The notes under the pieces are model-generated. The model did not search any database. It was not told where the DNA came from and saw only the letters and a program-made list of their open reading frames with translations. Positions 1,277 to 56,464 of a DNA stretch of 64,000 nt are shown piece after piece; the first letter of the stretch is position 1, and each line of letters begins with the position of its first letter. The stretch comes from Acidobacteriota bacterium (GTDB taxonomy: Bacteria; Acidobacteriota; UBA890; WLXD01), in contig WLXD01000001.1 in assembly GCA_012103255.1 (NCBI GenBank), positions 620,001-684,000 of the forward strand, given 5' to 3'. A program made the translations under genes and the position numbers.

Positions 1277-1693
1277 TCAGGCGTCGGCGGGCAGCAGACG
1301 GAACGGCTTGCCGGCGGGTCCCATGACGGCTCGGAAGTGTCTTTCGTCGAGGGTGAGCACCTCGGCGCACCCATGAAGTCGTCCGAGCGAGATGATCGAG
1401 GCATCGGCCAGGCCGAGCCCGAGATCACGGTATTCCGCGACCACATCGCGAGCAACGCTCACCTCGAGCGGTGTGAATTCCGCGAGTTGATAGGCGCCAC
1501 GGGCGACCTCGTCGAGCAGGGCGAGCTCGGCATCGACGCCGGCGAGCTTCCCCACGAGATAGTCGAGTTCGGCCAAGACGAACGGCGAGAGCAAGAACGA
1601 TCCGGTGTGCGACTCAACAATCGCGCGGCAGCTCTCGTGCCGACGTTGATCTTTGAACATCGCCGACAGGAGGCCGCTCGTATCGACGAGCAC
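1277..1693 (-). CDS. VapC-type PIN-domain ribonuclease toxin
   Basis: A 138-residue PIN-domain protein. The metal-binding acidic residues expected of the fold are visible: D4 in MLVDTSGLL, E42 in VLAELDYLV, an aspartate near 97 in GLADASII and one near 115 in LDERHF. PIN toxins are Mg-dependent RNases that cleave tRNA or rRNA. The start codon overlaps the last base of the upstream ribbon-helix-helix antitoxin, the usual antitoxin-first arrangement. The four acidic positions are intact, so the toxin looks functional. The RNA target cannot be told from sequence. Confidence 0.85.
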   Translation of the reverse strand: MLVDTSGLLSAMFKDQRRHESCRAIVESHTGSFLLSPFVLAELDYLVGKLAGVDAELALLDEVARGAYQLAEFTPLEVSVARDVVAEYRDLGLGLADASIISLGRLHGCAEVLTLDERHFRAVMGPAGKPFRLLPADA

Positions 1694-1929
1694 TAGTTCT
1701 TGCCGAAGTCGCTCAGAAGCTCGTCGACGTGCTCAGCGGCCAGCGGGTTCTCCAGCACGTGGGGCCCGAGTGGCACGTTCGGTCGCGGCCCGGCGGCCCG
1801 GTGCACACGTTCGGCGATCGCTTCGCGGATCAGCTCTGCCTCGCTGCGCCGCTCGGCTCGCGCGCGCATCTTGAGCGCAGCCTTGAGGTCGTCCGGGAGA
1901 TACACCGTCGTTCGTTTCATGACATACAT
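1693..1929 (-). CDS. Ribbon-helix-helix antitoxin (VapB/CopG type)
   Basis: A 78-residue protein with the N-terminal RHH pattern KRTTVYLPDDLKAALKMRA, then the helix RSEAELIREAIAERV, and a proline-rich C-terminal tail that would wrap the toxin. The start at 1929 is preferred because GAAGG sits about nine bases upstream; an alternative ATG three codons later (1920) would be too far from it. It precedes the PIN toxin with a one-base overlap. RHH antitoxins bind their own promoter as dimers and repress the pair. Confidence 0.8.
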   Translation of the reverse strand: MYVMKRTTVYLPDDLKAALKMRARAERRSEAELIREAIAERVHRAAGPRPNVPLGPHVLENPLAAEHVDELLSDFGKN

Positions 1930-2023
1930 AGTGCCATACCTTCTTTCGTGCCCACATATCGGTGGCCTTCTTTGATGTGAGACGGCCTGCGGAGTAGCTC
2001 TTCCGGTGTGAGAGCCTCCGGCG

Positions 2024-2509
2024 TCAGAACTCGTCGGGCCAGCCTGCGTAGGGGGCAGTGGCGAGACGGCCGTTGCGATAGCGGCGGTCGTGGCTGATTT
2101 CGGCTCCGGCCCAGTCTGGGATATCCACCGTTTCGTCCTCGGCGCTCAGTTCGATCTCGGCCACGACCAGGCCTTCGTTGTCGCCGTGGAACACGTCGAC
2201 CTCCCACTCTTGGTCGCCATGTGGCACCCGATGGCGAGTCTTGTCGATAACCGCACCCGTGACGTTGTGTTCGAGCAGGTGCTCGGCCTCGTCCACCGGA
2301 ATCGGGTACTCGCGTTCGACACGGGTGATCCCTTCGGTCGCGCCCTTGAGCGTGAGCCACGCCTGATCGCCGGCGACGCGGGCGCGCACAGTAAGACTGC
2401 CGGTGCTCAGGTAGCCCTGACGCATTCGGGTGGCCGATGATGCGTTGGACTGCCATGCGTCGCTGGTCACCAGGAACTTGCGTTCGATCTCCAGGGGCGG
2501 GCTGCTCAC
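2024..2509 (-). CDS. CYTH-domain protein (inorganic triphosphatase-like)
   Basis: A 161-residue CYTH/triphosphate-tunnel protein. It begins with the diagnostic EIERKFLV (the ExExK motif) and continues with the alternating charged strands of the tunnel: VRARVAGDQAWLTLKG, TRVEREYPIP and DKTRHRVPHG, then WEVDVFHG and LVVAEIEL. CYTH enzymes hydrolyse triphosphate or bind polyphosphate. The start is GTG at 2509, overlapping the stop of the upstream PPK2 gene (GTGA). It is the third gene of a coupled operon with two polyphosphate kinases, which supports a role in polyphosphate or triphosphate turnover; the actual substrate is inference. Confidence 0.88.
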   Translation of the reverse strand: MSSPPLEIERKFLVTSDAWQSNASSATRMRQGYLSTGSLTVRARVAGDQAWLTLKGATEGITRVEREYPIPVDEAEHLLEHNVTGAVIDKTRHRVPHGDQEWEVDVFHGDNEGLVVAEIELSAEDETVDIPDWAGAEISHDRRYRNGRLATAPYAGWPDEF

Positions 2510-3234
2510 GAGTCTTCCTCCACGTCGACGTGATCGGTGAGAATCTTCGCCAGATGCTGGGCGGCCTGAACACGTGCGTGTCGCTTGTCGTTCCCTGCGA
2601 TGACCGTCCAGGGTGCGTTCGCGGTGCTGGTGCGCGCCAACATCTCCTCAACGGCCGTTTCGTACTCGTCCCACTTCTGACGATTACGCCAATCTTCATC
2701 GGTGAGCTTCCATCGCTTGTACGGCGTTTCCTTGCGGGCTTCGAAGCGGCGCAACTGTTCTTCCGGACTGATGTGGATCCAGAATTTCACTAGCGCGATG
2801 CCTGCGTGCCCTAGCTGACGCTCGAACTCGTTGATCTCGCGGTAGGCACGACGCCACTCGTCTTCCTGAGCGAAGGCTTCGACGCGTTCCACCAGTACGC
2901 GCCCGTACCAGCTGCGATCAAACAGTGTGAGTTGTTTCTCATCGGGTGCGATGAGGCGTCGCCAGAAGCGCCACAGGTAGTGATGCACCTTGTCGTCTCC
3001 CGCGGGCGCCGCGATCTGGTAGACGTGAAAGCCTCGCGGGTCGAGCTTTTCCGTGATTCGACGGATATTGCCGCCCTTGCCGGCGGCGTCCCAACCTTCG
3101 TAGACCACGATGGCCGGGCGCTGCTGGCGGTACATGCGCAGCGCCAGAGAGCGCAACTCAAGCTGCGCCTCGAGCAGGGCCTTCGAGTAAGACTTCTTGT
3201 CCAACGCCGCGCTCAGGTCGACCTGGCTAAGCAT
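2506..3234 (-). CDS. PPK2-family polyphosphate:nucleotide phosphotransferase (canonical domain)
   Basis: A 242-residue PPK2 protein. It carries the Walker A loop YEGWDAAGKGGNIRRI, the Walker B segment LTLFDRSWYGRVLVERVE, and the lid region with EARKETPYKRWKLTDEDW. PPK2 enzymes transfer phosphate between polyphosphate and nucleotides. The start at 3234 is chosen over an upstream ATG at 3270 because it sits in ATGCTTAG, overlapping the end of the preceding PPK2-like gene by eight bases. Together the two genes (about 492 residues) match the two-domain class II PPK2 (polyphosphate:AMP phosphotransferase) split into separate polypeptides. The CYTH gene follows with a four-base overlap. Confidence 0.88.
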   Translation of the reverse strand: MLSQVDLSAALDKKSYSKALLEAQLELRSLALRMYRQQRPAIVVYEGWDAAGKGGNIRRITEKLDPRGFHVYQIAAPAGDDKVHHYLWRFWRRLIAPDEKQLTLFDRSWYGRVLVERVEAFAQEDEWRRAYREINEFERQLGHAGIALVKFWIHISPEEQLRRFEARKETPYKRWKLTDEDWRNRQKWDEYETAVEEMLARTSTANAPWTVIAGNDKRHARVQAAQHLAKILTDHVDVEEDS

Positions 3235-3979
3235 CGTCCCGCTCCGGTCTCTCGGGCGTTTCAAAGCCACGTCGCTCCAGGCCTGCGCGCATTGCCGCGG
3301 CCACAGCCTCGAGCACCTTCACCCGGGCCCAGTGGCGATCTGTCGACTCGACGATTGTCCACGGCGCCCATTCGGCCTCCGTGTGTTCGAGCATGAGCTC
3401 AGTGGCCGTCGCGTACTCGACGTACTGGGCGTGACGTTCCCAGTGCCTCGGCGTGACCATCCAGTCGAGAGCGGCGTCCTCCTCGCGTTGTTTCAGTCGC
3501 CGTTCCTGTTCGTCCGCCGAGATGTGCATGAAGAGCTTCACGATCTCGTATCGATCGTCGGTCAGCATGCGCTCGAAGCTGCGGATCGCCCCGTACGAAC
3601 GCTCGCACTCCGGGGCGCCGGTGGCGCCTTCGACGCGTTCGATCAGTACGCGGCGATACCAACTCCTGTCGAAGATCCCCATCTTGCCCCACGACGGAGT
3701 GGCCACCCAGAAGCGGGCGAGCCACGGCATCGGTAGCTCGTGTGTTCGCGGTGCCCGCACGCTGTGGAGGTGGTAGGCACGCGGTTCGAGACGGCGCGTC
3801 AGTCGCCCGATGGCAGCGCCTTTACCGCACGCCTCCCAGCCCTCGAACACGACGATCGTCCCGACGTTGGCCTCGCGACACGCTCCCTGCAGCCGGTGCA
3901 GGTAAAGCTGCAGGTCGGGAAGGAGCTTCTTGTAACGCGACTTCTTCAGCCGCTTGTCGAGGTCGACGGTTTCCAGCAT
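3227..3979 (-). CDS. PPK2-family protein, first half of a split two-domain PPK2
   Basis: A 250-residue protein of the PPK2 fold. The P-loop is a variant (FEGWEACGKGAAIGRL) that keeps the Lys and Gly residues but replaces the usual AAGKGG by ACGKGA; the second motif MGIFDRSWYRRVLIERVEG is conserved. The segment after strand 3 (RAPRTHELPMPWLARFW) and the lid differ from the canonical neighbour. In fused class II PPK2 proteins the N-terminal domain is the more divergent one, and this gene has exactly that position and character. It opens the operon, overlapping the next gene by eight bases. Whether it retains catalysis or only structures the partner cannot be told. Confidence 0.83.
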   Translation of the reverse strand: MLETVDLDKRLKKSRYKKLLPDLQLYLHRLQGACREANVGTIVVFEGWEACGKGAAIGRLTRRLEPRAYHLHSVRAPRTHELPMPWLARFWVATPSWGKMGIFDRSWYRRVLIERVEGATGAPECERSYGAIRSFERMLTDDRYEIVKLFMHISADEQERRLKQREEDAALDWMVTPRHWERHAQYVEYATATELMLEHTEAEWAPWTIVESTDRHWARVKVLEAVAAAMRAGLERRGFETPERPERDDA

Positions 3980-39498: not shown

Positions 39499-40233
39499 CT
39501 AGAACCAGGCTCGTATCCCGATCAAGAATGCCGTGCGCGCGACCGGGACACCGTCAGCGCGGGCGAAGTCGGCTGTCTTTCCGAACTTCTGCTCCCACTG
39601 TATCCCTAGGTAGGGAGCCAATTCGCGCCGAAACTCGTAGCGGAGGCGAAGCCCTAGTTCGATATCGGCCAGGCCCGGCCCCTCGTGCCAGTCGGCGTTG
39701 GTCTGGGCTGCGAAGTTGGCCTCCAGCGCCGGCTGAAGCACGAGCCGCTGAGTCAGCAGCAGATCGTAGGTTCCCTCGAAACGGGCCGTCAGATCGCCAT
39801 CGTTGCTCAGAAAGATCGCCGGCTCGAGGTGGAACCAATACGGCGCGAGCCCCTGCAGGCCCAGCACGAGGTGAGCTCGTGACTGCGAGCCGTGCACGTC
39901 GCGGTCGTACCGCACACCCGCCTGGAGTTCCCAGAACGGCGTGACTAGGCGGCTGTAGAGGCCCTGGATCTCGTAGTGTCCTTCGGCGTCTCCGGCCGCC
40001 TCACCTTCGGTCTTGAGCCAGACACGGTTGAAGTCGCCACCGAGCCAACCTTCGACGTCCCAGTTCAGCGTGTCTTCCTTACCCGCCGACCACTCGAGTT
40101 GGTCGGCCATGACGAACCAGTAGAGTTGATCGCCGTGCTCGGGCATCTCCCAGTCACCGTGTTGAGCGGCCACCGGAAGATAAAGGACTACGCAGAGCGC
40201 GAGTACGAGAAAGCGCAGGTGCTTGAACCTCAT
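39499..40233 (-). CDS. copB: Copper resistance protein B (outer-membrane)
   Basis: A 244-residue exported barrel of the CopB/PcoB family. Signal peptide FLVLALCVVLYLPVAAQ. Strand pattern: QLYWFVMADQLEWSAGKED, LNWDVEGWLGGDFNRVWLKTEGE, FWELQAGVRYDRD, HLVLGLQGLAPYWFHLEPAIFL, and the end LRYEFRRELAPYLGIQWEQKFG. It ends in an aromatic (IRAWF). It sits in the outer membrane and limits periplasmic copper. The Met-rich N-terminal repeats of the plasmid versions are missing. It overlaps copA by four bases and is followed directly by the methyltransferase. Confidence 0.92.
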   Translation of the reverse strand: MRFKHLRFLVLALCVVLYLPVAAQHGDWEMPEHGDQLYWFVMADQLEWSAGKEDTLNWDVEGWLGGDFNRVWLKTEGEAAGDAEGHYEIQGLYSRLVTPFWELQAGVRYDRDVHGSQSRAHLVLGLQGLAPYWFHLEPAIFLSNDGDLTARFEGTYDLLLTQRLVLQPALEANFAAQTNADWHEGPGLADIELGLRLRYEFRRELAPYLGIQWEQKFGKTADFARADGVPVARTAFLIGIRAWF

Positions 40234-42077
40234 GACGCACCTTCGAGGGAGTGACTGTCCTGGTGATCGGAATGCTCATGTGCGGGACTCGCGTCAACTA
40301 CGTCGACGACTCTGAACATGCCGGCATCCATGTGGTAGAGGATGTGGCAGTGGAAGGCCCAGCGGCCGGGCGCGTCGACCTCGACATCCACGAACATGCG
40401 CTCGCCGGGTTTGAGATTCACTGTGTGCTTGCGCGGATTGTGCGCGCCGTTGCCGTTCACCAGATGTATCCACATTCCGTGCAGATGCAGCGGGTGCTCC
40501 ATCATCGTGTCGTTGACGAAGTTGATACGTAGACGCTCGCCGTGGAAGAAGGTGATCGGCCCTTCCACTTGAGTGAATTTCTTGCCGTCGAACGACCACA
40601 TGTAGCGTTCCATGTTGCCGGTCGCGTGAAGCTCGATCTCGCGATCCGGTGTCCGGTGCTCGTACAGGGGTTCGAGCGCGCGTAAGTCGCTGTAGACGAG
40701 GACACGCCAGCCGTCATTGCCCAGCCCGATGCCCGGCTCGCCGAGACGCGTCGTGGGGGCCTCCGCCACGCCAGCGCTCCCCGGGCCGTGGTGATCGGGT
40801 CCATGGGGCGCCGAGGTGGGCAACTCGCTGGTCATCGTCATGGGTTGATCGGTCAGGTCTCCATGACCCATCGCGGCATGATCCATCGCGTCTGCCGACG
40901 GTTCCGGTCCCATGGCCACATGGTTCATGTCTGCGTGATCCATCCCCATGTCGGCCATCGTGCGCAGTGGGCGCGGACGGAGCTCGGGGACCTCGGCCTG
41001 CATGCCGAGGCGTGGCGCGAGCGTGCCGCGTGCGTAGCCGCTACGGTCGATCGACTCGGCAAACAGGGTGTAGGCGCGCTCTTCCCTCGGATGCACGATG
41101 ACGTCGTAGGTCTCGGCTGTCGCGATGCGTAGTTCGTCGACCGTGACGGGCTCCACGTTCTGTCCGTCGGCCTGCACGACGGTCAGGGCGAGGCCCGGGA
41201 TCCGGACGTCGAAGAAGCTCGCAGCGGACGCATTGATCAGACGCAGCCGTACGCGCTCACCGGGCTCGAAGAGACCCGTCCAGTTGTCCCCCGCGGCCAT
41301 CCCGTTGACGAGGTAGCGATAGGTCGCGCCGGTGATGTCGGCGAGGTCGGTGACGTCCATTCGCATCCGGCCCCACATCGCGCGATCAGCCAGGGCCGCG
41401 CCGAGACCCTGCTCGCCCGCGTCGCTAAACAGGTCTCCTACCGTGCGCCGTTGGTAGTTGTAGTAGTTGGCCCGTTTCTTGAGGCGTCCGAGAATCTTGT
41501 AGGGATTCTCGAACGTCCAGTCCGACAGCATGACCGTGTGCTCACGGTCGTAGTCGAACGGATCGCCTTGCGCCGGGTCGATGATCAACGGACCGAAGTG
41601 GCCGAGCTGTTCCTGAAGTCCGGAATGGCTGTGGTACCAGTACGTGCCGTTCTGCACGACGCGGTAGTGGTACTCGAAGGTCTCGCCTGGCGGTATCCCG
41701 CCGAAGCTGATGCCCGGCACGCCGTCCATTTCCGGCGGCAGCAGGATGCCGTGCCAGTGCACGGATGTCGGCTCGTCGAGCTCGTTGTGGACTCGGAGCG
41801 TGGCGGTGCCGCCTTCGCGGAAGCGAAGCAGTGGGCCAGGAACGGAGCCGTCGATGGTCACGGCAGACGTGCGTCGCCCGTCGATGTCGAGTGCCGTTCG
41901 GCGGATCGCCAGATCTATATCGGTGTCGAGCGCGCCCGTTGCGGGGGCGAGACGCCGATGCCCCGCGTTTACGAGTGCCCAAGGCGGTAGTAGCGCCGAG
42001 GCCGCGCACCACGCGGCGCCAGCGCCGACGGAGTTCAGGAATGTGCGGCGATCGAGCCGCGGGATCTTTGGAGACAT
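40230..42077 (-). CDS. copA: Multicopper oxidase CopA, Tat-exported
   Basis: A 615-residue multicopper oxidase. The start at 42077 yields the Tat leader LDRRTFLNSVGAGAAW. All copper-site motifs are present: TSVHWHGILLP, YWYHSHSG, HPLHLHGMWIHLV and the C-terminal HCHILYHMDAGMFRV (type 1/3 ligands). A methionine/histidine-rich insert at ~370-420 (MDHADMNHVAMG, DAMDHAAMGHGD) is the Cu(I)-binding segment of CopA. It oxidises Cu(I) in the periplasm and gives resistance. A longer frame to 42143 is rejected because it masks the Tat motif. Operon: His-rich gene, copA, copB. Confidence 0.95.
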   Translation of the reverse strand: MSPKIPRLDRRTFLNSVGAGAAWCAASALLPPWALVNAGHRRLAPATGALDTDIDLAIRRTALDIDGRRTSAVTIDGSVPGPLLRFREGGTATLRVHNELDEPTSVHWHGILLPPEMDGVPGISFGGIPPGETFEYHYRVVQNGTYWYHSHSGLQEQLGHFGPLIIDPAQGDPFDYDREHTVMLSDWTFENPYKILGRLKKRANYYNYQRRTVGDLFSDAGEQGLGAALADRAMWGRMRMDVTDLADITGATYRYLVNGMAAGDNWTGLFEPGERVRLRLINASAASFFDVRIPGLALTVVQADGQNVEPVTVDELRIATAETYDVIVHPREERAYTLFAESIDRSGYARGTLAPRLGMQAEVPELRPRPLRTMADMGMDHADMNHVAMGPEPSADAMDHAAMGHGDLTDQPMTMTSELPTSAPHGPDHHGPGSAGVAEAPTTRLGEPGIGLGNDGWRVLVYSDLRALEPLYEHRTPDREIELHATGNMERYMWSFDGKKFTQVEGPITFFHGERLRINFVNDTMMEHPLHLHGMWIHLVNGNGAHNPRKHTVNLKPGERMFVDVEVDAPGRWAFHCHILYHMDAGMFRVVDVVDASPAHEHSDHQDSHSLEGAS

Positions 42078-42199
42078 TTTTCTTGGAGGCTCGGGTGCCG
42101 GGAAGAGCACCCATCGATTGCAGACGGACGTGACGGTGCTCATTCGGGCACGTCACGGAGAACATCAGGCCCGCCGGCGGGTAGCCGGCGGCGCGTTCT

Positions 42200-42634
42200 T
42201 CAGAGCCTCAGTGGTATCGATTCCGAAAGCTGGGCGCGGCGGTCCGATAGCCCGTGGGGTGTGGCCGCGCTGCGTGCACGCTGAAGCTCGACGGCGGCGG
42301 TCGCCGCAAGAATCTGCGGCTCGAACTCGCCGTTGCGCGAGTCCTTCTTGGCCAGCAGCGAGCAGCAACCGTGCACCTCGCATGTCTCGTGCTCACCGTT
42401 CTGGGAGGCCGTCCATGCGGGGCCAGCGTCGGTGCTGGCGGCATGCCCAGCATGCGCCGCCGCGGTTGTGCTCATCCGCATCGAGTCGGGTTCGTGACCG
42501 TCGTGGCCGCCAGTCCCCGCTGATTTCGGCACAAAGCCCACCGCGGCGCAGAGGTTTATCGCCAGGATGGCAACACAAGCAGCGGCCATCACGCGGCCGT
42601 ACCGGGTCTGGAAGATGTGACGAAGAGGCTGCAT
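42200..42634 (-). CDS. Small His-rich protein of the copper operon
   Basis: A 144-residue protein with one N-terminal membrane or signal segment (RVMAAACVAILAINLCAAVGFV), then a His/Met-rich stretch (GGHDGHEPDSMRMSTT, AAHAGHAASTDAG) and a paired-cysteine region HETCEVHGCCSLLAKKD. The pattern resembles DUF2946-type and similar periplasmic copper-binding proteins placed ahead of copA/copB. It probably acts as a metal chaperone or sensor; no function is established. It is separated from copA by 122 bases that contain no gene. Confidence 0.65.
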   Translation of the reverse strand: MQPLRHIFQTRYGRVMAAACVAILAINLCAAVGFVPKSAGTGGHDGHEPDSMRMSTTAAAHAGHAASTDAGPAWTASQNGEHETCEVHGCCSLLAKKDSRNGEFEPQILAATAAVELQRARSAATPHGLSDRRAQLSESIPLRL

Positions 42635-45883: not shown

Positions 45884-46909
45884 ATGCGCGTTCTGCTCGC
45901 GATCGCATCGCTCCTGGTAGCGGCGGCACCACCGCTCACGAGTCAACCAGTGCCGCACCGTGTGGACTATCTCGGCACCGAGGGGCCGGGGGCAGGGAAG
46001 AGCATCGTCTTCGTCGCGGGCGACCATGAGTATCGATCGGAGGAAATCCTGCCCGCGATGGCGAGGATTCTCGCGCAGCGTTATGGGTTCTCGTGCACGG
46101 TGCTGTTCACCCTCGATGAGGAGGGGTTCATCGAGCCCGGGAGTTCGAACATCGCGGGCATGGATGCGCTCGGTTCTGCCGATCTCGTAGTTGTCGGCTT
46201 GAGGTTCCAGGACTTTCCACACGACCAGATGCAGCACCTCGTGGACTACGTGGAGCGCGGCGGGCCGGTGCTGGGGATTCGCACATCCACGCACGCGTTT
46301 CGGATTCCCGAGGGGCCGTATCGCAAGTATTCGTGGGACTACGACGGTGCCGACTACGAAGGCGGATTCGGTGAGCAGGTGCTGGGCGAGACCTGGGTCG
46401 GCCACTACGGCACGAATCACGAACAGAGCTCGCGGCTCCAACTCGAAGAGGCGCAGGCGGGCAACCCTATTCTTCGCGGCGTGGCTGACCTCCACGTGCA
46501 GTCGGGTGGCTACAACGCCGTTCCGCCGGATGACGTCACGGTGCTAGCTCGCGGCGTGGTGCTCAATGGAATGAGCTTCGACGACCCTCCTGACCCCGAA
46601 AAGGACGTCTTACCCGTCGTCTGGACGCGCACGCACGGCCACGGTGGCCGCGTGTTCACGACCACGCATGGCGCCTCCGAGGACTTCGTGAATCCCGGCT
46701 TCAGGCGCCTTTTGATCAACGGTGCGCTGTGGGCACTGGGCCTCGAAGACGAGATCAGACCGGACTCCAACGTCGACTTCGTCGGGCCGTACCACCCCGC
46801 GCGATTCGCGTTCGATGGCTATCGGATCGGCGTGCGTCCGAGCGATCTGGCCGGATGGGACTCTCCAATCATGTCACCGGACAAACCGACGGAGCGCACG
46901 GAGCAATGA
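45884..46909 (+). CDS. ThuA-domain secreted protein
   Basis: A 341-residue exported ThuA-type (class I glutamine-amidotransferase-like) protein. Signal peptide RVLLAIASLLVAAAPPL. Domain motifs: KSIVFVAGDHEYRSEEILPAM, ADLVVVGLRFQDFPHDQMQHL, GGPVLGIRTSTHAF and GRVFTTTHGASEDF. ThuA proteins are linked to trehalose and sugar catabolism; the family has no assigned catalytic Cys. It is the first of four closely spaced genes. The stop overlaps the next start (ATGA), so products are made in proportion. Confidence 0.85.
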   Translation: MRVLLAIASLLVAAAPPLTSQPVPHRVDYLGTEGPGAGKSIVFVAGDHEYRSEEILPAMARILAQRYGFSCTVLFTLDEEGFIEPGSSNIAGMDALGSADLVVVGLRFQDFPHDQMQHLVDYVERGGPVLGIRTSTHAFRIPEGPYRKYSWDYDGADYEGGFGEQVLGETWVGHYGTNHEQSSRLQLEEAQAGNPILRGVADLHVQSGGYNAVPPDDVTVLARGVVLNGMSFDDPPDPEKDVLPVVWTRTHGHGGRVFTTTHGASEDFVNPGFRRLLINGALWALGLEDEIRPDSNVDFVGPYHPARFAFDGYRIGVRPSDLAGWDSPIMSPDKPTERTEQ

Positions 46910-49770
46910 AGGCACTGAAGCGACAGAGCATCGCGGCCCTCGCGCTCCTGGCACTCCTGGCCGGGTGCTCCGAGACGACGGTGCCGCTTGAGGCCGGCGA
47001 CCGTGTCGTGTTGATCGGCAACGCGCTCGCTGAGCGCATGCAGCACGACGGCTGGCTCGAGACATACCTGCAAACCGAGTTGCCGGACCTAGAGCTTGTG
47101 TTTCGCAATCACGGCTTCGCGGGGGATCGAATCGGCCACCGACCGCGGGTGAGGGATTTCCCGGGTGCCGACGAGTACCTCGCGTGGTCCGAGACCGATG
47201 TGATTCTGGCGATGTTCGGCTACAACGAGTCGTTCGATGAGGACCCGGAGGGCTTTGGCGACGCGGTCGTGCGTTGGATCGAGCACACACGGGGCCTAGA
47301 CTACTCCGGGAATGGGACACCGGAGATCGTGCTACTCGCTCCCATCGCGCACGAAAACCTCGCCAATCCGAACCTTCCGGACGGTGCCGACAACAACACC
47401 CGCCTCGCGGCTTACGCCGATGCGATGGGCCGGGCAGCGTCGGCGTCGGGCGTTCGCTTCGTCGACCTATTCGCTGCATCGCAGCAGCTCTACGTCGCCG
47501 CGGATACGCCGTTGACCATCAACGGCGTACACCTTGGCACGGAGGGGAACCGGCAGATCGCCGAGGTGATCGTCGAGGAACTCATCGGACGTTCCCCGAG
47601 CGCGGAAGGGGCACGAGTGGAGACCGTCCGAGCGGCGGTTCTGGAAAAGAACTGGCACTGGTTCAATCGCTATCGCACCACCGATGGCAACGACGTGTGG
47701 GGTTCTCGGTCGACCCTTGCGTTCGTCAACGGACAGACCAACTACGAAGTGCTGCAGCGCGAACTCGTCCAACTCGATGTCATGACGGCGAACCGTGATC
47801 TCGCGATCCACGCAGCGGCGCGCGGTGAGTATCGGGAGGTCGACGACTCCAACGTGCCCGAGCCGATCGCCGTGGAGAGCAACCTCGGCGACGAGCAGCT
47901 GCAGGACGGCGTGAGTAAGACCGGCACGCTCGAGTATCTGGGGGCAGAGGAGGCCATCGATCGGATGACCCTGGCCGACGGACTGGAGGCGAACGTGTTC
48001 GCCTCGGAAGAGATGTTCCCCGAGCTCGTGAACCCCGTGCAGCTCGGCGTCGATCCGGCCGGGCGCATGTGGGCGGCCACGTGGGGGACTTATCCGAAGT
48101 GGGAGCCCACCGGTGAGATGAATGACCGACTCGTGATTCTCCCCGACGACGACCGCGATGGCGTGGCCGATCGCGCGATCACCTTCGCGTACGTGCATAA
48201 CCCGACGGGGTTCGAATTCTGGAACGGCGGAGTGATCGTGGCATCGGTCCCCGATCTGATCTTCCTGAAGGACACCGACGGCGACGACGTGGCGGACGTG
48301 CGGATTCCGATTCTCGGCGCCCTCGGATCGGCCGACACTCATCACTCGGCCAACAACTTCATCTACGGCCCCGACGGCTTTCTCTACTACCAGCGCGGCG
48401 TCTTCAACGTGTCGAACGTGGAAACGCCGTGGGGGCCCAACCAGCTGTCGGATGCGTCGGGGATGTACCGGTTCAATCCGCGGACCTGGTCGTTCAGTTT
48501 TCATGCCGCCAACAGCCCTAACGCCCACGGCACCGACTTCGACTACTGGGGCTACCACTACGCTACGGACGCGACCGGCGGTAGGGCGTACCAGGTCAAG
48601 CCGGAAGAAGACGGTCGTTTCACGATGGAGCAACTACTCGACCAGACGGTCAGGCCGGTGCCGTCGAGCGGCATATTCTCGAGCGATCATTTCCCGCCGA
48701 AGTACGAACAGAACTTCCTGATCCTCAACGTCATCGCGTTTCTGGGGATCAAGCAGTACACCCTCGATCGTGATCCGGACACGGGCGCGGTGTGGGGCTC
48801 CGAAACCGAGGATCTGCTGTATTCGTCGGACCCCAACTTCCGGCCTACCGACTTCGAGGTAGGCGACGATGGCGGGCTCTACGTGGCCGACTGGTCCAAC
48901 GCCGTGATCGGGCATATGCAGCACAACATCCGCGACCCAGCGCGAGACCATTCGCACGGGCGCATCTACCGCGTGACGGCGACCGGTCGACCGCTTTCGG
49001 AGCACGTGCCAATCGGCGGAGCGCCGATCCCGGCACTCCTCGAGGCACTCGAGTATCCGGTGAACGGGGTAAGGCGACGCGCCCGTAGCGAGCTGTCACA
49101 GCACGATCCGGACGACGTGATTGCTGCCACCGAGTTGTGGATGCAGCAGTTCGATGCCACCGACGCGGCCGACGCGCATCATCTGCTGGAGGCGCTATGG
49201 CTGCATCAGCAGTTCAACGTGGAGAACACGGAACTGCTGGCCCTGTTGCTCAACTCGCCGGAGCCCCATGCGCGAGTTGCGGCCCGCAACGTCGAATATG
49301 CGTGGGAGCACGAACTTGCCGGCGCCTACGGCTTCGACACGGCGGTGGCGGAGAGCGTGTACATCCCGACGCGGGATCCGGACCCCGACGCTATCGTGAT
49401 TCGCGCGGTGCCCGACGAGATGCGGTTCGACGTCACGGATTTCACCGTGAACGCCGGAGAGACGGTGAAGATCTGGTTCGAAAACCCGGACTACACGCCG
49501 CACAACCTCGTGCTCGGAATGCCCGACTCGGCTGAAGAAATTGCGCTCGCGGCCGAGGGGCTAGGGGCGCTGGGCTTCGCCGTCGGCTTCCTCCCGGACA
49601 GCGACAAGGTGTTGATGGCGACCGACTTGCTCAACCAGGGCGAGTACCAGGTGTTGGAGTTCACCGCGCCTGAAGATCCCGGCGACTACGACTATGTCTG
49701 TACGTTCCCCAACCACTGGCAAACGATGCGTGGCGTGATGCAGGTGCTCGCGCGCGAGGAGGGCGAATGA
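46906..49770 (+). CDS. Lipoprotein: SGNH-like, membrane-bound dehydrogenase propeller, azurin-type cupredoxin
   Basis: A 954-residue lipoprotein, start ATG 46906 (leader ending LLALLAGCSE). Residues ~30-235 are SGNH-like (VVLIGNALAERMQHDGWLETY, later LTINGVHLGTEG); the nucleophile block reads IGNALAE without the Ser, a form known in Planctomycetes relatives. Residues ~340-740 are the membrane-bound dehydrogenase propeller: LADGLEANVFASEEMFPELVN, DDDRDGVADRAITFAYVHNP, HHSANNFIYGPDGFLYYQRG. No CxxCH haem site follows. Residues ~835-950 are a cupredoxin with H866 and C932-TFPN-H937-WQT-M941, the azurin Cys-x4-His-x3-Met arrangement. It probably passes electrons from an oxidised substrate to the copper site. 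The 3' end overlaps the next gene by four bases. Confidence 0.83.
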   Translation: MKALKRQSIAALALLALLAGCSETTVPLEAGDRVVLIGNALAERMQHDGWLETYLQTELPDLELVFRNHGFAGDRIGHRPRVRDFPGADEYLAWSETDVILAMFGYNESFDEDPEGFGDAVVRWIEHTRGLDYSGNGTPEIVLLAPIAHENLANPNLPDGADNNTRLAAYADAMGRAASASGVRFVDLFAASQQLYVAADTPLTINGVHLGTEGNRQIAEVIVEELIGRSPSAEGARVETVRAAVLEKNWHWFNRYRTTDGNDVWGSRSTLAFVNGQTNYEVLQRELVQLDVMTANRDLAIHAAARGEYREVDDSNVPEPIAVESNLGDEQLQDGVSKTGTLEYLGAEEAIDRMTLADGLEANVFASEEMFPELVNPVQLGVDPAGRMWAATWGTYPKWEPTGEMNDRLVILPDDDRDGVADRAITFAYVHNPTGFEFWNGGVIVASVPDLIFLKDTDGDDVADVRIPILGALGSADTHHSANNFIYGPDGFLYYQRGVFNVSNVETPWGPNQLSDASGMYRFNPRTWSFSFHAANSPNAHGTDFDYWGYHYATDATGGRAYQVKPEEDGRFTMEQLLDQTVRPVPSSGIFSSDHFPPKYEQNFLILNVIAFLGIKQYTLDRDPDTGAVWGSETEDLLYSSDPNFRPTDFEVGDDGGLYVADWSNAVIGHMQHNIRDPARDHSHGRIYRVTATGRPLSEHVPIGGAPIPALLEALEYPVNGVRRRARSELSQHDPDDVIAATELWMQQFDATDAADAHHLLEALWLHQQFNVENTELLALLLNSPEPHARVAARNVEYAWEHELAGAYGFDTAVAESVYIPTRDPDPDAIVIRAVPDEMRFDVTDFTVNAGETVKIWFENPDYTPHNLVLGMPDSAEEIALAAEGLGALGFAVGFLPDSDKVLMATDLLNQGEYQVLEFTAPEDPGDYDYVCTFPNHWQTMRGVMQVLAREEGE

Positions 49771-50624
49771 TCGTTCCGCGTACCACTCGCGCCGAGATCA
49801 TGACGAAGCTGCACGGCAAGATCGACGCGCACAAACCCATCTTCATCGCCAGCGCGGGCAGTGGTCTGGTGGCGAAGTTGCTCGAGAAGGCCGGCGTCGA
49901 TTGCATCAACACCTTCTCCGGCGCGCGCCTCCGTGCCAACGGCATGGGTACCATGTCGATGATGTGGCCGATCCTGGACTCGAACCAGCAGACGCTCGAC
50001 TACACCGAGCAGGACATCATGCCGGCCGTCGAGGGCGATGCCTTCGTGTGCGCGTGCATCAACGCGAACGATCCCTTGCGTGACATGCGGTCGGTGCTCG
50101 AGCGCCTCAAGGGAATGGGTGTGATGTCGGTGTCCAACATCGGGCCGTCGATCAGCTACGTGGACAAGGACAGCAATCTGTTCAAGGTGCTGGAGAAGAG
50201 CGGCATCACGCTCGATCACGAAATCGAGATGCTCGCGCTGGCCAAGGAAATGGACATGGTCACCGTCGGCCTGGCCTTCGACATGGAAGACAGCCTGCGG
50301 ATGATCGAGCGCGCGCGCCCCGACATCTTCTGTTTCCACGCCGGCACCACGAAGGGCGGCATGGTGGGCTACGACTCTGGCGAGACCATCGAGGAGACGG
50401 CGCGGCGTACCGAAGAGGCCTACATGGCGGCCCGCGAGATCGCGCCCGAGACGATTCTTGTGGCGCACGGTGCCGCGATGGAAACGCCGGAGGACGCCGG
50501 CTACATGCTCCGCAACACGACGGGACATGGATTCTGGACGGGATCGTCAACCGAGCGCCTGCCCATCGAACGGGCGGTGCTGGGAGCGGCCCAGGAATTC
50601 GCGGCCCTGACGTTCGAGGACTGA
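49767..50624 (+). CDS. Phosphoenolpyruvate-hydrolase-like TIM-barrel protein
   Basis: A 285-residue TIM-barrel of the PEP-hydrolase-like family (also called TIM-barrel signal transduction protein). Features: KPIFIASAGSGLVAKLLEKAGVD, NTFSGARLRANGMGTMSMMW, AVEGDAFVCACINANDPLRDM, GVMSVSNIGPSISYVDKDS, DIFCFHAGTTKGGMVGYDSG and ILVAHGAAMETPEDAGYML. The fungal counterparts fuse this domain to a Tm-1-like domain. Here the next gene is that partner, five bases downstream. Reaction unknown. It overlaps the lipoprotein gene by four bases. Confidence 0.86.
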   Translation: MIVPRTTRAEIMTKLHGKIDAHKPIFIASAGSGLVAKLLEKAGVDCINTFSGARLRANGMGTMSMMWPILDSNQQTLDYTEQDIMPAVEGDAFVCACINANDPLRDMRSVLERLKGMGVMSVSNIGPSISYVDKDSNLFKVLEKSGITLDHEIEMLALAKEMDMVTVGLAFDMEDSLRMIERARPDIFCFHAGTTKGGMVGYDSGETIEETARRTEEAYMAAREIAPETILVAHGAAMETPEDAGYMLRNTTGHGFWTGSSTERLPIERAVLGAAQEFAALTFED

Positions 50625-50628
50625 AGAG

Positions 50629-51864
50629 ATGGGCGAATCTCGAACCATCGCAATCCTGGCCACGCTCGACACCAAGGGTGAAGAGGTCGACTACCTCCGT
50701 GCTCAGCTCGCGGAGCTTGGCGGCGAAGCCCGGATATACGACCTCGGCGTGGTCGGCACGGCGATGGCTGCAGCCGACCTCAGCCGGTCGGAGATCGCTG
50801 ATGCGGGCGGAACATCGTTGGACACGCTGCTCGAAGGCCCTACACGCGAGGTCGCCGGTCCCGTGATGGTCGCCGGCGCGACGAAGTTGCTGCACGAGGA
50901 GATCGCCGCTGGGTCGGTGCACGGCGTGCTGGGTATCGGCGGCACGCAGGGAACTTCGTCCTGCTGCGAGATCATGCAGTCGCTGCCGTACGGATTCCCC
51001 AAGGTCATGGTGTCGACCGTGGCCTCGGGAGACACCTCGCCTTTTGTCGGGATCAAGGACATCACGATGATGTTCTCGGTGAGCGACCTGCTCGGCGTGA
51101 ACCCGTTCACCGCGCGGATTCTGGCCAACGCCGCGGGCGCTGCTTACGGCATGGCGCTCACTGCCGAGAACGCGGCGCCGATTGCAGGTGGCGATCGGCC
51201 TCTGATCGCGATGACCAACCTTGGCGTTCTCACCGCCGGCGCGACCCAGGCACTCGAGCTGTTTCGCGAGGCGGGCTATGACGTGGTCGTGTTTCACGCG
51301 GTCGGCTCAGGAGGCCGGGCGATGGAGCAGCTCATGAAGGACGGCGTCGTGGGCGCCGTGTTCGACTACGCCCTCGGCGAAATCGCCGCCGACGTGTTCG
51401 ACGGCCTGCGTGCGGGCGGCCCCGAACGGTTGACCGTTGCCGGGAAGCTCGGGCTACCGCAGGTCATTTGCCCAGGCGGGGCCGAACATCTGGGCTTGTT
51501 TGTGGAACCGAACGTCGTGCCAGCGGAGTACTTTGAGCATCCTCATGTGTTCCACAGCCCTGTGGTCTTCGTACCGCGCCTGAACACGGAAGAGTTCGTA
51601 CGCGTCGCCGACGAGGTCTGTGCGCGCCTGCAACACACCGCCGGCAAAGCGACGATGATGCTGCCGCTCCAGGGCGTAGGGAGTTACTCGATTCCAGGCG
51701 GCCCGCTGCACGATGCCGCGGGTGATGCGGCTTTCTTCGATGCGCTGCGTAGCGGACTTCCGGAAGGCATCGAAGTTGTGGACGTCGATGCTGGCGCCGA
51801 GGATCCCGAGTTCGTTCGCGCCTGCGTCGACCGACTCGTGCGCTGGATCGAATCCGCGGGATAG
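50629..51864 (+). CDS. Tm-1-like ATP-binding domain protein (UPF0261)
   Basis: A 411-residue protein of the Tm-1-like/UPF0261 family. Motifs: TIAILATLDTKGEEVDYLRAQL, GVLGIGGTQGTSSCCEIMQSLPYGFPKVMVSTVASGD (split here: GVLGIGGTQGTSSCCEIMQ), AIAGGDRPLIAMTNLGVLTA, EAGYDVVVFHAVGSGGRAME and IPGGPLHDAAGDAAF. The plant relative Tm-1 binds ATP and blocks tobamovirus replication; bacterial function is unknown. It pairs with the preceding TIM-barrel gene. It ends one base before the convergent efflux locus. Confidence 0.88.
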   Translation: MGESRTIAILATLDTKGEEVDYLRAQLAELGGEARIYDLGVVGTAMAAADLSRSEIADAGGTSLDTLLEGPTREVAGPVMVAGATKLLHEEIAAGSVHGVLGIGGTQGTSSCCEIMQSLPYGFPKVMVSTVASGDTSPFVGIKDITMMFSVSDLLGVNPFTARILANAAGAAYGMALTAENAAPIAGGDRPLIAMTNLGVLTAGATQALELFREAGYDVVVFHAVGSGGRAMEQLMKDGVVGAVFDYALGEIAADVFDGLRAGGPERLTVAGKLGLPQVICPGGAEHLGLFVEPNVVPAEYFEHPHVFHSPVVFVPRLNTEEFVRVADEVCARLQHTAGKATMMLPLQGVGSYSIPGGPLHDAAGDAAFFDALRSGLPEGIEVVDVDAGAEDPEFVRACVDRLVRWIESAG

Positions 51865-53361
51865 CTACTGCTGCGCAGCAGTCTCCGCAGCTGCCGCGTC
51901 AGCGGCGAGTGTCGGATCCTCGTTGGCTTCGGGGCGCCAGCCGCCGCCCAGGGCGGTGTAGAGGCCGACGAGGTTCTGCACCAGTAGCCCTTCACTGGTC
52001 GCGAGTTCGTCCTGGAGTCGGAACAAGGACCGCTCCGTGTCCAACACGTTCTGGAAGTTCGCGAGCCCGCTCAGGTACTGGATGTTGACGATCTCGACGG
52101 CACTCTCCGTGGCGTCGACCGCCTCGGTGAGCCGATCACGCCGGATCGTTTCCATCGCGTAGGCGATGAACGCGTTCTCGACGTCTTCGATCGCACGGAG
52201 CACCGTGTCCTCGTAAAACAGCATCAACTGATCGGTTCGCGCTTCCTGCACCGCGATGTTGTTGCGGATCTTGGCACGGTCGAAGAGGTTGAAGTTGAGC
52301 CCGGGGAAGATGCTCCAGCCGAGACCGCTGCCGTCGCCGGGACCAGCCCACTGAAATGAGAGCAGTCCGGTGATCGAGAAGCTTGGGTACAGGTCGGCGG
52401 TAGCGACGCCGATCTGTGCGGTCTGTGCGGCGAGCTGCCTTTCGGCGCGGCGGATGTCCGGACGTTGCCGTAGCAGGTCGGCCGGAATCCCGGCGATCAC
52501 TGTGCGCGCCGGGATCGGGACGGGTTGGGTGATCGACAGTTCGTCGTGCAGCGAGCCCGGGGCCGTGCCGAGGATGACGGCGAGCCGGTTGAGCGCGAAG
52601 CTGAGGCTCGCCTCCAGTGATGGAATGGCCGCCTCGGTGTCCGCGAGATTCGATTTTGCCTGCTCAACATCGAGTAGCGAGACAAGGCCGGCATCGAAGC
52701 GTGCCTGCGCGATGCGCAGACTCTCGCGCTGCGACTCGGCGTTGTCCCGGGCCGCGTCGATACGCGCCTGCAGCGCGCGGACGTCGAGGTAGCTGAGGGC
52801 GACCTCGGAGTAGAGGCTCACGAGCACGTCGCGATAGTCCTCGACGGTGGCCTCATAGGTCGCCTGGGCCGACTCGACCTGGCGCGCGATGCGACCGAAG
52901 AGGTCGACTTCCCACGATGCGGTGGCGCCAATGTTGGCCACGCCGCGAACCTCGCCCGGAATTCCCGTCTGCGCTTCGCTGGTTTCGCCGATTTGATAGT
53001 CGGCCTGCGCGGCCACGTCGGGGAGATTCTCGCTCTTCTGGATCGCCAGCAGATAGCGAGATTCGTAGATACGCGAGAGCGCCGCCTGCGTGCTCAGGTT
53101 TTGCGCGCGCGCCCGATCGATCAGGCTGGAGAGCATGGGGTCATCGAACGTGCTCCACCACGTCTCGAGCGTGGCGTCACCTGTTTCGAGACCGGTCACG
53201 ATCGCCGTGTGCCACGCATCGGGCATCGGCGAGCCGTCGGCGAGAGTGGTGGGCGGTGGCTCGTAGTCCGGACCGACGACGCAGCCCGTCGACAGCAGGG
53301 CAACGAGGATCAGCGCCGCAGCGCTACTGCCCGAACTGGGCGCCTTGGTCTCGGGCACCAT
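51865..53361 (-). CDS. Outer-membrane efflux factor (NodT/OprM type), in frame with the RND pump
   Basis: The region corresponds to an OprM-like outer-membrane factor. The lipobox LVALLSTGC sits with its Cys codon at 53283-53281, then VVGPDYEPPPTTLADGSPMP. OEP repeats follow: ATASWEVDLFGRIARQVESAQ, ILGTAPGSLHDELSI, PADLLRQRPDIRRAERQLAAQ and QYLSGLANFQNVLDTERSLF. There is no stop codon between the pump and this part, so the whole can be a fusion; an internal ATG at 53361 (MVPETK) is an alternative start with GGAG about 12 bases before. The leader is unusually poor in N-terminal positive charge. The protein ends in the outer membrane/periplasm. Confidence 0.82.
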   Translation of the reverse strand: MVPETKAPSSGSSAAALILVALLSTGCVVGPDYEPPPTTLADGSPMPDAWHTAIVTGLETGDATLETWWSTFDDPMLSSLIDRARAQNLSTQAALSRIYESRYLLAIQKSENLPDVAAQADYQIGETSEAQTGIPGEVRGVANIGATASWEVDLFGRIARQVESAQATYEATVEDYRDVLVSLYSEVALSYLDVRALQARIDAARDNAESQRESLRIAQARFDAGLVSLLDVEQAKSNLADTEAAIPSLEASLSFALNRLAVILGTAPGSLHDELSITQPVPIPARTVIAGIPADLLRQRPDIRRAERQLAAQTAQIGVATADLYPSFSITGLLSFQWAGPGDGSGLGWSIFPGLNFNLFDRAKIRNNIAVQEARTDQLMLFYEDTVLRAIEDVENAFIAYAMETIRRDRLTEAVDATESAVEIVNIQYLSGLANFQNVLDTERSLFRLQDELATSEGLLVQNLVGLYTALGGGWRPEANEDPTLAADAAAAETAAQQ

Positions 53362-56300
53362 CTTCAGCACCCGCTCCACGAACAGCTGCACCAGCACGTA
53401 GAAGGCGGGAATCAGGAAGATCCCGAGCACGGTGGCAATCAGGAAACCTGAGAACACCGCCGTACCTAGCGCCTGCCGGCTACCGGCACCGGCACCCGAC
53501 GCGATTACCAAGGGAATAACGCCGAGGATGAACGAGAACGCCGTCATCAGCACAGGCCGGAAGCGCAGTCGGGCCGCGGTCGTTGCCGCCTCCTGGATGG
53601 AGTGTCCCTCTTCGCGGAGTTGCTTGGCGAACTCCACGATGAGAATGGCCGTCTTGGCGGCCAACCCGATTAACAGCACTAACCCGATTTGGGTGTAGAT
53701 GTTGTTGTCGAGACCTCGCACGAGGGTCCCGAGAATGGCGCCTAGCAGGGCCACGGGAATGAAGCTCATGACCGAGATCGGAATGAACCAACTCTCGTAC
53801 TGAGCAGCGAGGAACAGAAACACCATGATGGCAGCGAGCCCGAAGATCAGCGGCGCCTGGTTTCCAGCCACCAGCTGCTGGTACGTAACGCCGGTCCACT
53901 CGTAGCCCATCGACGCCGGCAGGTACTGCCCGGCGAGTTGTTCCATCGCGGCGATGGATTCGCCTGACGAGAAACCCGGTGCAGCCGACCCCGTGATGTT
54001 GGCCGACGGGTACAGGTTGTAACGGGTGATTGCCTGCGGGCCGACGGTGTCGGAAACCGTGAGCAGCGTGCTCAGCGGAATCATGTTGCCGTCGCGGTCG
54101 CGAACCTGAATCCGCCCGATATCTTCGATCTGGTTTCGGAACTCCGCGTCCGCCTGCACCATGACGCGATACGTGCGGCCGAAGAGGTTGAAATCGTTGA
54201 CGTACGCGGACCCCAGATAGGCCTGGAGCGAACCGAAGACCTCGCCGAGAGAGATCCCGAGCGTGCGCGCTTTCGTGCGATCGACCTCGAGATAGAGCTG
54301 CGGCACCGTGGCCCGGAAGCTGTTGTTCAACCGGGTCAGAACCGGATCGTTCATCCCGTTGAACACGAGGTCGTTGGCGAGATCCTGGAGTTGGATGGAC
54401 CCGAGGTTGCCACGGTCCTGGAGCTGGAACTCGAAACCGCCGGCCGCGCCTAGACCCATGATCGGAGGCGGAATGAACGTGAATCCGACTCCTTCCTGGA
54501 ACTGCTGCATTTCCATCGTCAGCTGTTGGGCAACCGCGATGGCGTGCTGTTGCGGATTCGGCCGCTCCTCCCAGGTGTTCAGCACGATGAATGCCGCGCC
54601 CGAGTTGCTCGACACCAGGGAGTCCAGCAACGAATAGCCGCCGATCGTGATCACGTCGGCCACATCCGGGTGAGCCATGGCGATCTCGTTGAACCGATCC
54701 AGCACCTCTTTGGAGCGATGCAGCGACGCACCGTCGGGCAAGCTGATGTTGCCCATGATGTAACCCTGATCCTCGTCCGGCAGGAAGCCGCCCGGCACGG
54801 CGTTGAAGCCCCAGCCAAGCGCAACGATCAGTCCGGCCATGATGATGATCGCGAGCGAGGCTCGCCGGATCAGCAACTTCACAACGCCAAGGTAGCCGCC
54901 GGTGATCTTCTCCAGCGTCGCGTTGAACGCCCGGAAGACGATGTTGCGCTTCTCCGGGCTCGGGCGCAGCAGGATGCCGCAAAGCGCGGGACTCAGCGTC
55001 AGCGCGTTGATCGATGAGAAGACCGTAGCCACCGAGATGGTGATCGCGAACTGCGAGTAGAGGCGGCCGGTAATGCCACCCATCATGGCGGTGGGCACGA
55101 AGACGGCCAGCAGGACCGCGGTGGTCGCTACAACCGGGCCGCTCACTTCCTCCATCGCTTGGGAGGTCGCCTCCTTGGCCCCGAGACCCTTCTCGTCGAT
55201 CAGGCGCATCGTGTTCTCGACGACGACGATCGCGTCATCGACCACGATCCCGATCGCGAGAACGAGCCCGAACAGGGTCAGCGTGTTGATCGTCATGCCC
55301 ATGGCGAGCATCACGGCAAACGTGCCCAGCAGCGAGACGGGAATGGTTATGGACGGCACGATCGTCGTGCGGATGTCCTGCAGGAAGATGTACACCGTGA
55401 GGATGACGAGCAGGATCGCGATCAGCAGCGTCTCAACGACCTCGGAGATCGACGTCGTGATGAAGCGTGTCTGGTCGTAAGCGATCCTGTATTCGAGCCC
55501 TTCCGGGAAGCGCGTCTCCAGCTCGTTCATCACGGCTCGAACACCGTCGGCGACCTCGAGAGCATTCGATCCCGGCAGCTGATAGATGCCCATCGCGATC
55601 GATGGCGCGCCATTCAACTGGACGTACCAGTTGTACGCCTGCGCGCCAAGTTCGACACGTGCGACATCGCGGAGTCGGACGATGCGACCGTCGGCGGAAA
55701 CCTTGACGATCATGTCCTCGAAGTCCGAAACATCGGCCAGTCGACCCAGCGTGCTGACCGTGTATTGGAACTCCGTGTCCGTGGGCGACGGCGGCGCACC
55801 GATTTGGCCGGCGGCAACCTGTACGTTCTGCTCCTGGATCGCAGCGACGACGTCTGTCGTCGTGAGGTTGCGCGCCTGCAACCGTCGCGGATCCATCCAG
55901 ATCCGCATGCCGTACGTCCTTGGCACCAAAAACCTGAACGAGGGCCACGCCCGGCACCCGCGCGAGCTGGTCCTTGATATTGATGTTGATGTAGTTGGAC
56001 AGGAAGATCTCGTCGTAGCGACCGTCCGGCGACTGCAGGTTCACCATCAACACGATCGCGGTCGACTGTTTGTCGGTGATGATGCCCTGACGCTTGGTCT
56101 CTTCCGGGAGCTTCGGCTCGGCGCGTGCAACGCGGTTCTGCACCATCACCGTTGCCATGTCGATATCTGTGCCGATATCGAAAGTGACGGTGAGGTTCAT
56201 GGAGCCGTCATCGGCACTCTTCGAGGACATGTAGATCATGTTCTCGACGCCGTTGACTTCCTGTTCGATCGGAACCGCGACGGTCTCCGCGACAACAGCG

Positions 56301-56464
56301 GCGCTGGCGCCGGGATAGCTCGTTGAAACCTGAACGGTAGGCGGCGTGATGTCCGGGGTGTTTTCGATTGGCAGCGCCGGAATCGCGAGCCCGCCCAGAA
56401 GCGAGATGACGATCGCGATCACCAGCGCGAAGACCGGCCGGTAGATGAAGAACTTGCTGAACAT
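53359..56464 (-). CDS. HAE1-type RND efflux pump with a +1 frameshift
   Basis: The N-terminal part (ATG 56464: MFSKFFIYRPVFALVIAIVI; ITPPTVQVSTSYPGASA; GVENMIYMSSKSADDGS; DQLARVPGVALVQVFGAKD) and the rest (YGMRIWMDPRRLQARNL, VVAAIQEQNVQVAAGQIGAP) are in different frames. One extra G at 55915, between GAC and TAC, restores the pump. The remainder has the proton-relay Asp pair in GIVVDDAIVVVENT and the Lys in LLIGLAAKTAILIVEFAKQ. It is otherwise intact with twelve membrane segments. It joins the outer-membrane factor without a stop. MFP lies four bases upstream of its start. Confidence 0.85.
55912..55918 (-). other. Frameshift site in the RND gene
   Basis: Minus-strand codons read AAG-GAC, then an extra G (55915), then TAC-GGC-ATG. 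Removal of the G joins GAKD to YGMRIW, the conserved RND sequence. The base could be a real insertion, an assembly error or a recoding site. Confidence 0.8.

Follow-up and report, generated by a model that had tools for sequence, protein, structure and literature searches.

Four consecutive genes on the plus strand of the window (the whole stretch of 64,000 nucleotides that was analysed) form an apparent operon at 45884-51864, with a ThuA gene, a lipoprotein gene, a PF09370 barrel gene and a UPF0261 gene in this order (Table 1). The gene set is real and is conserved in other genomes. We give an even chance to the reading that the operon serves carbohydrate catabolism in which the first oxidation takes place outside the cytoplasm. 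A sequence-only reading of the same DNA had suggested an uncharacterised oxidative catabolic route. That hypothesis was a fair one and is partly supported, with enzymes of sugar catabolism found as neighbours at other loci.

Table 1. Positions of the four genes and of the lipoprotein domains in the window
Feature	Position	Strand	Basis and remarks
ThuA-domain protein, 341 aa	45884..46909	+	PF06283; secreted, signal-like N-terminus
Lipoprotein, 954 aa	46906..49770	+	Lipobox, SGNH-like domain, propeller, helical repeat part, cupredoxin
SGNH-like domain	47047..47553	+	PF13472, 38.5 bits; motif positions
Six-bladed propeller (DUF7133/TIGR02604)	47947..48975	+	Predicted model, structural match, alignments
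Type-1 cupredoxin, azurin/auracyanin-like	49414..49746	+	PF00127; auracyanin A E 1.5e-14
PF09370 'PEP hydrolase-like' TIM barrel, 285 aa	49767..50624	+	Pfam, model, 42-row alignment; cytoplasmic
UPF0261 (Tm-1-like) protein, 411 aa, N and C domains	50629..51864	+	PF06792, PF23189; cytoplasmic

Gene arrangement and flanks

The stop codon of the ThuA gene and the start codon of the lipoprotein gene overlap in an ATGA (46906-46909). A second ATGA (49767-49770) joins the lipoprotein stop to the barrel start and thus crosses the junction between envelope and cytoplasmic genes, and a 4-base gap (50625-50628) separates the barrel gene from the UPF0261 gene. The ORFs confirmed this spacing as the sequence-only reading had given it. 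Because start and stop codons overlap, one transcript for the four genes is likely; a promoter and terminator scan around the operon gave no signal above that of shuffled sequences. A genome search found a single copy of each of the four families in the 4.81-Mb window genome. Single copies that all lie consecutively indicate that the arrangement is more than chance, and we rejected chance adjacency since the gene set also recurs elsewhere.

Upstream, a MacB-type gene (Pfam) lies 75 bases from the ThuA gene. On the right, the four-gene unit is bounded by a convergent efflux operon whose end is the very next base. In this region (51865-56464, minus strand) an efflux pump gene apparently occupies two frames, with the break near 55.9 kb, and the C-terminal part of the pump is in frame with an outer-membrane-factor lipoprotein in one 1354-aa ORF. 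The anomaly reflects either a frameshift plus a pump-OMF fusion or a sequencing error. A copper-resistance set (39499-42634, minus strand; CopB-like protein, multicopper oxidase and small His-rich protein, all by eye) lies approximately 3 kb upstream of the cupredoxin-encoding operon. No sugar transporter adjoining the operon was seen in the window, and a full aldolase-SDR (fused class II aldolase/short-chain dehydrogenase) was not found in the window genome. The rest of the pathway would therefore lie elsewhere in the genome or be different.

The envelope proteins

By eye, the ThuA protein has a hydrophobic, signal-like N-terminus and the lipoprotein an LLAGC lipobox; the barrel and UPF0261 proteins have neither feature. 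This agrees with the proposed division into two envelope and two cytoplasmic proteins. Membership of the first protein in the ThuA family is clear (PF06283, 57.9 bits versus a Pfam cut-off of 33.4). In the lipoprotein, Pfam identified DUF7133 (201.8 bits), Copper-bind (38.8 bits) and Lipase_GDSL_2 (38.5 bits). The propeller region scored 188.8 bits with the NCBIfam model TIGR02604 (cut-off 122.2), and the NCBIfam azurin match was below its model cut-off. The protein therefore resembles the PVC-type haem-binding CxxCH proteins of TIGR02604 in its propeller, but carries a cupredoxin where CxxCH would stand.

We used a predicted model of residues 341-954, covering propeller and cupredoxin (mean pLDDT 83). 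Its propeller has the fold of PQQ sugar dehydrogenases (sGDH/ASD), with 3a9g as the closest structure (Z 26.5, 281 aligned residues, rmsd 2.8; VIA-align), followed by 2ism (Z 25.0), 7cgz (24.3) and 3das (23.6). All of the top three are entries of PQQ sugar dehydrogenases or glucose dehydrogenases. The window protein shares a six-bladed propeller with 3a9g, 2ism, 3das and the AA12 enzyme 6i1q (Z 26.5 to 22.7), but differs from them in its SGNH-like N-terminus, its azurin-like C-terminus and the lack of a profile match. Propellers of the DFPase and SMP30-lactonase type scored nearly as high (Z about 22-24), and the absence of a family from the match lists does not exclude that family. Alignments showed conserved propeller motifs (DTHH, FRP, DW and GHMQH..RDP.RDH.HGR) and invariant His and Arg positions. 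The sequence profile of the propeller found no PQQ enzyme, and hence gave no alignment by which these positions could be placed or PQQ ligands mapped. For this reason, the cofactor can only be presumed.

The cupredoxin matched auracyanin and azurin both by sequence and by fold. It has the type-1 pattern His, Cys, His, Met, which we take to be that of azurin, with H866 and C932-x4-H937-x3-M941 as probable copper ligands. The earlier description of a dehydrogenase-like lipoprotein with a copper site is supported by the sugar dehydrogenase fold and the type-1 copper domain.

We surveyed the carrier domains of 21 lipoprotein homologues encoded near barrel genes, the window protein included. Nine had a cupredoxin motif alone, five CxxCH alone, four both and three neither; the window lipoprotein is without CxxCH. 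A redox carrier motif, of one or both of two interchangeable kinds, was thus present in 18 of the 21 proteins. Among the remaining three, one was cut by the contig end (L028), one was interrupted by unread bases and still gave a cupredoxin match by tblastn (L068), and one was a short protein (L018). The last is gemmatimonad (1490-3958, plus strand) and its lipoprotein stops before the cupredoxin, with the operon order kept. Fused carrier domains are known from fungal pyranose dehydrogenase. In our view, the exchange of two unrelated electron carriers on one propeller is the best evidence that the propeller is probably a redox enzyme.

The propeller could instead be a hydrolase of the lactonase type or serve as a scaffold for binding, and the cluster a hydrolytic system for glycan processing or sensing. 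The Z scores of about 23 with SMP30 and DFPase-type propellers, the lack of a sequence match to PQQ enzymes and the apparently dead SGNH-like domain described below would all fit. We nevertheless regard this as quite improbable, given that the best three structural matches are PQQ sugar or glucose dehydrogenases, the first with Z 26.5, and that carrier motifs of two interchangeable kinds accompany 18 of the 21 homologues.

The block I serine, which we take to mark a catalytic SGNH motif, is absent in the window: IGNALAER, just upstream of the domain at 47014, has GNAL in its place. The domain also contains an NGVHL motif at 47521. The motif could be located in 15 of the 21 homologues, and all 15 are without GDS. 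Since the usual serine is missing, the SGNH-like domain looks catalytically dead, and its role is more likely binding than cleavage.

The cytoplasmic pair and its neighbours in other genomes

The barrel protein matched the PF09370 profile PEP_hydrolase with 207.3 bits (cut-off 33.8). Its model (pLDDT 85) was closest to 2p10 (Z 35.0, 267 aligned residues, rmsd 2.0), with 4ml9 as the second match (Z 21.1). PEP mutase, phosphonopyruvate hydrolase, oxaloacetate acetylhydrolase and methylisocitrate lyase followed with Z 17-19, a range in which other TIM barrels score alike (Z 17-18). The window barrel lies outside the main PF09370 group. It is 31-34% identical to ordinary members of its phylum, and its group reaches about 202-207 bits versus about 434-437 for ordinary members in two genomes (G021 and G041). 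Identity within the window-type clade is 69-86% across phyla (best 80 of 153 relatives). Judged by these values, the window-type barrel is a divergent, separate PF09370 subfamily.

The UPF0261 protein matched both domains of its family (N 179.2 bits, PF06792; C 186.8 bits, PF23189; cut-off 27) and the structures 9mpy and tomato Tm-1. It is not part of a fused polypeptide as plant Tm-1 proper is; barrel and UPF0261 are separate ORFs, 4 bases apart. According to an excerpt of Yang et al. 2016 (PMC5028733), the two families co-evolve in bacteria, archaea and fungi. They are fused mainly in streptophytes, with a fused form in nearly all sequenced land plants; a tomato virus-resistance protein is one such form. 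The fusion had been placed in fungi by the sequence-only reading; the same excerpt counts only two fused Aspergillus genes. As in the UPF0261/TBST (Tm-1-like) pair of Yang et al. 2016, both families are present and co-occur in our locus. The window differs in its divergent barrel subfamily, in the envelope pair attached, and in gene order: the barrel precedes UPF0261, but the ordinary barrels of G041 and G021 follow it. Operon partners of the envelope-pair kind are not mentioned in the excerpt (PMC5028733).

Among the papers that our searches found, none gives a reaction for UPF0261 or its barrel partner. A cytoplasmic ATP-dependent step had been proposed, an idea that derives only from a family name. 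We also considered a link between ThuA and Tm-1 through a ThuA mutation in phage-resistant Cutibacterium, but rejected it because the ThuA and Tm-1-like genes of that chromosome are widely separated, as seen in an excerpt of PMC12733950.

The barrel was the query of a scan that found 153 relatives. We retained the 80 most similar (69-86% identical), together with flanks of at most 10 kb per side. As loci were picked by barrel similarity, farther relatives are unrepresented in this 80-locus set, which spans Acidobacteriota, Gemmatimonadota, Planctomycetota, Bacteroidota, Verrucomicrobiota, Pseudomonadota and others. Neighbour genes came from a home-made ORF caller and some were mis-started; counts were therefore made by tblastn, with thresholds of our choosing (45 bits in general, raised to 60 for hydrolase and epimerase and to 200 for the aldolase-SDR) and a distance of 6.5 kb. 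One of the loci counted for the propeller, L031, has only a weak match (28%).

UPF0261 stands directly behind the barrel (at most 400 bases, same strand) in 65 of the 73 testable loci among the best 80 of 153. The eight others are L031, L057, L080, L082, L085, L086, L088 and L090. Six of them are verrucomicrobial (L080, L082, L085, L086, L088 and L090) and often have an alpha/beta hydrolase gene and a gene labelled by eye as sulfatase-like beside the barrel; UPF0261 of L088 lies 4.7 kb beyond it. The planctomycete locus L031 (4544-9872, minus strand) has a second barrel gene, 29% identical and back to back with the window-type barrel. The neighbours of this second gene are cupin-like and MFS-like genes (by eye), a sugar-epimerase-like gene and UPF0261.

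All four families occurred together in 16 of the best 80 of 153 loci, in at least five phyla, as the idea of a co-occurring gene set had implied. The exact window order was kept in five of these 80 (L012, L013, L014, L015 and L018), and strands and gene order vary among loci. In the 40 loci fully flanked by 6.5 kb on both sides, ThuA was found within that distance in 14 and the propeller in 13. Of the ThuA-bearing loci (among the best 80 of 153), 16 of 23 had the propeller. ThuA is nevertheless a low-copy family here, with one to six copies per genome in the 19 of 22 searched genomes with a Pfam match. In the genomes of L013, L014 and L018, Pfam missed a ThuA that tblastn finds at those loci, and copy numbers for these three are lower bounds.

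UPF0261 and PF09370 were confined to the same six of 60 genomes (the window genome and relatives). Within the phylum, the lipoprotein had a match in 17 of 247 genomes, but only four matches ran through the cupredoxin (G000, G002, G004 and G007; 66-100% identical), and all four lie beside a barrel gene. The other 13 were at most 50% identical, and 10 of the 12 checked were without PF09370. Scattered genes, which the sequence-only reading had named as evidence against itself, were thus not seen in the close group. In three distant genomes (G021, G146 and G196), a propeller homologue (43-50% identical) does lie far from the barrel gene or on a different contig.

On a tree of 81 barrel proteins, built by a quick method and with 33 of 78 forks open, ThuA and the propeller each changed state 10 times and the aldolase-SDR seven times. 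In seven independent pairs, ThuA and propeller changed in the same direction 5.2 times and in opposite directions 0.2 times (paired sign test, median p about 0.06). Ten changes each, mostly joint, suggest repeated gain or loss of the envelope pair at the barrel locus.

These data bear on whether the operon holds two independent conserved pairs, one of the envelope and one of the cytoplasm, which act in different pathways and share a transcript for regulation only. Each pair is indeed commoner than the quartet (barrel-UPF0261 and ThuA-propeller, counted above), strands and order vary, and most of the propeller-homologue genomes checked have no PF09370. On the other hand, the envelope pair changes jointly and repeatedly at the barrel locus, the start/stop overlap spans the junction between the pairs, and every full-length lipoprotein among the 247 genomes adjoins a barrel gene. 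We therefore consider independent pairs unlikely.

The cytoplasmic pair is also found with different enzymes. Of the best 80 of 153 loci, 30 had an aldolase-SDR, 18 an alpha/beta hydrolase and eight a sugar-epimerase-like barrel at most 6.5 kb from the barrel gene. To see whether the aldolase-SDR may take the place of the envelope pair, we compared it (30/80) with the propeller (21/80); the two occurred together in four loci of this set (p 0.065, confounded by lineage). In 27 of the same 80, many of them on short contigs, ThuA, propeller, aldolase-SDR and Gfo/Idh/MocA were all absent within 6.5 kb. The Pacificibacter marinus locus (L089) has a ribose-type ABC permease and binding protein, and two alphaproteobacterial loci (L079 and L084) have an FGGY kinase, a HAD hydrolase and a second aldolase. 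Two loci of the best 80 of 153 (L036 and L058) have ThuA and then, immediately upstream of the barrel, a Gfo/Idh/MocA oxidoreductase, called by family scan in L036 and by similarity in L058; by eye, neither ThuA has an obvious signal. Judging from these gene neighbourhoods, the theme common to the loci is an oxidoreductase of predicted sugar-catabolic type beside the barrel/UPF0261 pair.

We take the Gfo/Idh/MocA protein of L036 and L058 to be of the ThuB type. As in the thu system, ThuA thus occurs in a context of sugar oxidation. The title of the thuEFGKAB operon paper, as it appears in the reference list of PMC10433430, names 3-keto derivatives. In contrast to the thu system, the ThuA of the window is a secreted protein whose partner is a propeller-cupredoxin lipoprotein, and no adjoining thuEFGK-like transporter was seen. 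A simple thu-type trehalose operon was rejected because no such transporter was seen next to the genes, and because of the different oxidoreductase and the secreted ThuA.

Barrel and UPF0261 might also stand off the main pathway and remove or repair a side product formed when the sugar is oxidised. This would agree with the pair accompanying several different oxidising enzymes, and with a barrel (69-86% identical) that is more conserved than the ThuA (32-70%) and propeller (28-82%) found near it by tblastn. We think this very improbable, as the aldolase, kinase, epimerase and transporter neighbours elsewhere fit a main catabolic pathway.

Proposed pathway and its meaning

Beyond the parts, order, recurrence and folds reported above, we infer a substrate, a cofactor, an import step and a reaction of the last pair. 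The propeller of the surface lipoprotein would oxidise a sugar with a PQQ-type cofactor, and electrons would pass to the protein's own copper domain, or to haem in relatives; the SGNH-like domain may serve glycan binding. The secreted ThuA would act on the resulting keto-sugar, much as thuAB reportedly acts on 3-keto disaccharides, and the product would enter the cell. There the barrel, usually partnered by UPF0261, would cleave or hydrolyse a keto- or hydroxy-acid formed from the product. Where a lineage has no envelope pair, the same cytoplasmic pair would receive its substrate from a Gfo/Idh/MocA enzyme or an aldolase-dehydrogenase.

We favour this sugar-oxidation reading because of the PQQ sugar dehydrogenase fold, the swapped carriers and an oxidoreductase slot that is filled otherwise elsewhere. 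The adjacency of single-copy genes, their recurrence, the nearness of ThuA to the barrel despite few copies per genome and the joint changes of ThuA and propeller also argue for it, as do the L089 transporter and the likeness of the barrel to the PEP mutase/isocitrate lyase superfamily. We count against it the 27 of 80 loci with none of the four partners named above, the eight of 73 without UPF0261 behind the barrel, the exact order in only five of 80, the separation in G021, G146 and G196, the missing PQQ sequence match and the nearly equal scores of DFPase and lactonase-type propellers. The window genome, moreover, is without a full aldolase-SDR, no sugar transporter was seen adjoining the operon, and the sign test reached only p of about 0.06.

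A bolder hypothesis, which we hold to be possible but doubtful, is that barrel and UPF0261 together make up a single, hitherto undescribed two-subunit enzyme, which splits a C-C bond in an oxidised sugar acid, perhaps as oxaloacetate hydrolases release oxalate. This would be the ancestral activity of the fused plant Tm-1. The pair would be a cassette that moves between phyla and plugs into interchangeable oxidising front ends, namely the copper/haem propeller lipoprotein, Gfo/Idh/MocA or the aldolase-dehydrogenase.

The four families had been named correctly before; the SGNH-type domain of the lipoprotein and the divergent barrel subfamily had been missed. That copper and haem carriers replace each other on the same propeller points directly to a redox-active envelope enzyme. 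With enzymes that oxidise and cleave sugars as its conserved bacterial neighbours, the possible chemistry of UPF0261 and the barrel becomes narrow enough for testing, and this gene context offers a plausible metabolic context for a family related to a tomato virus-resistance protein.
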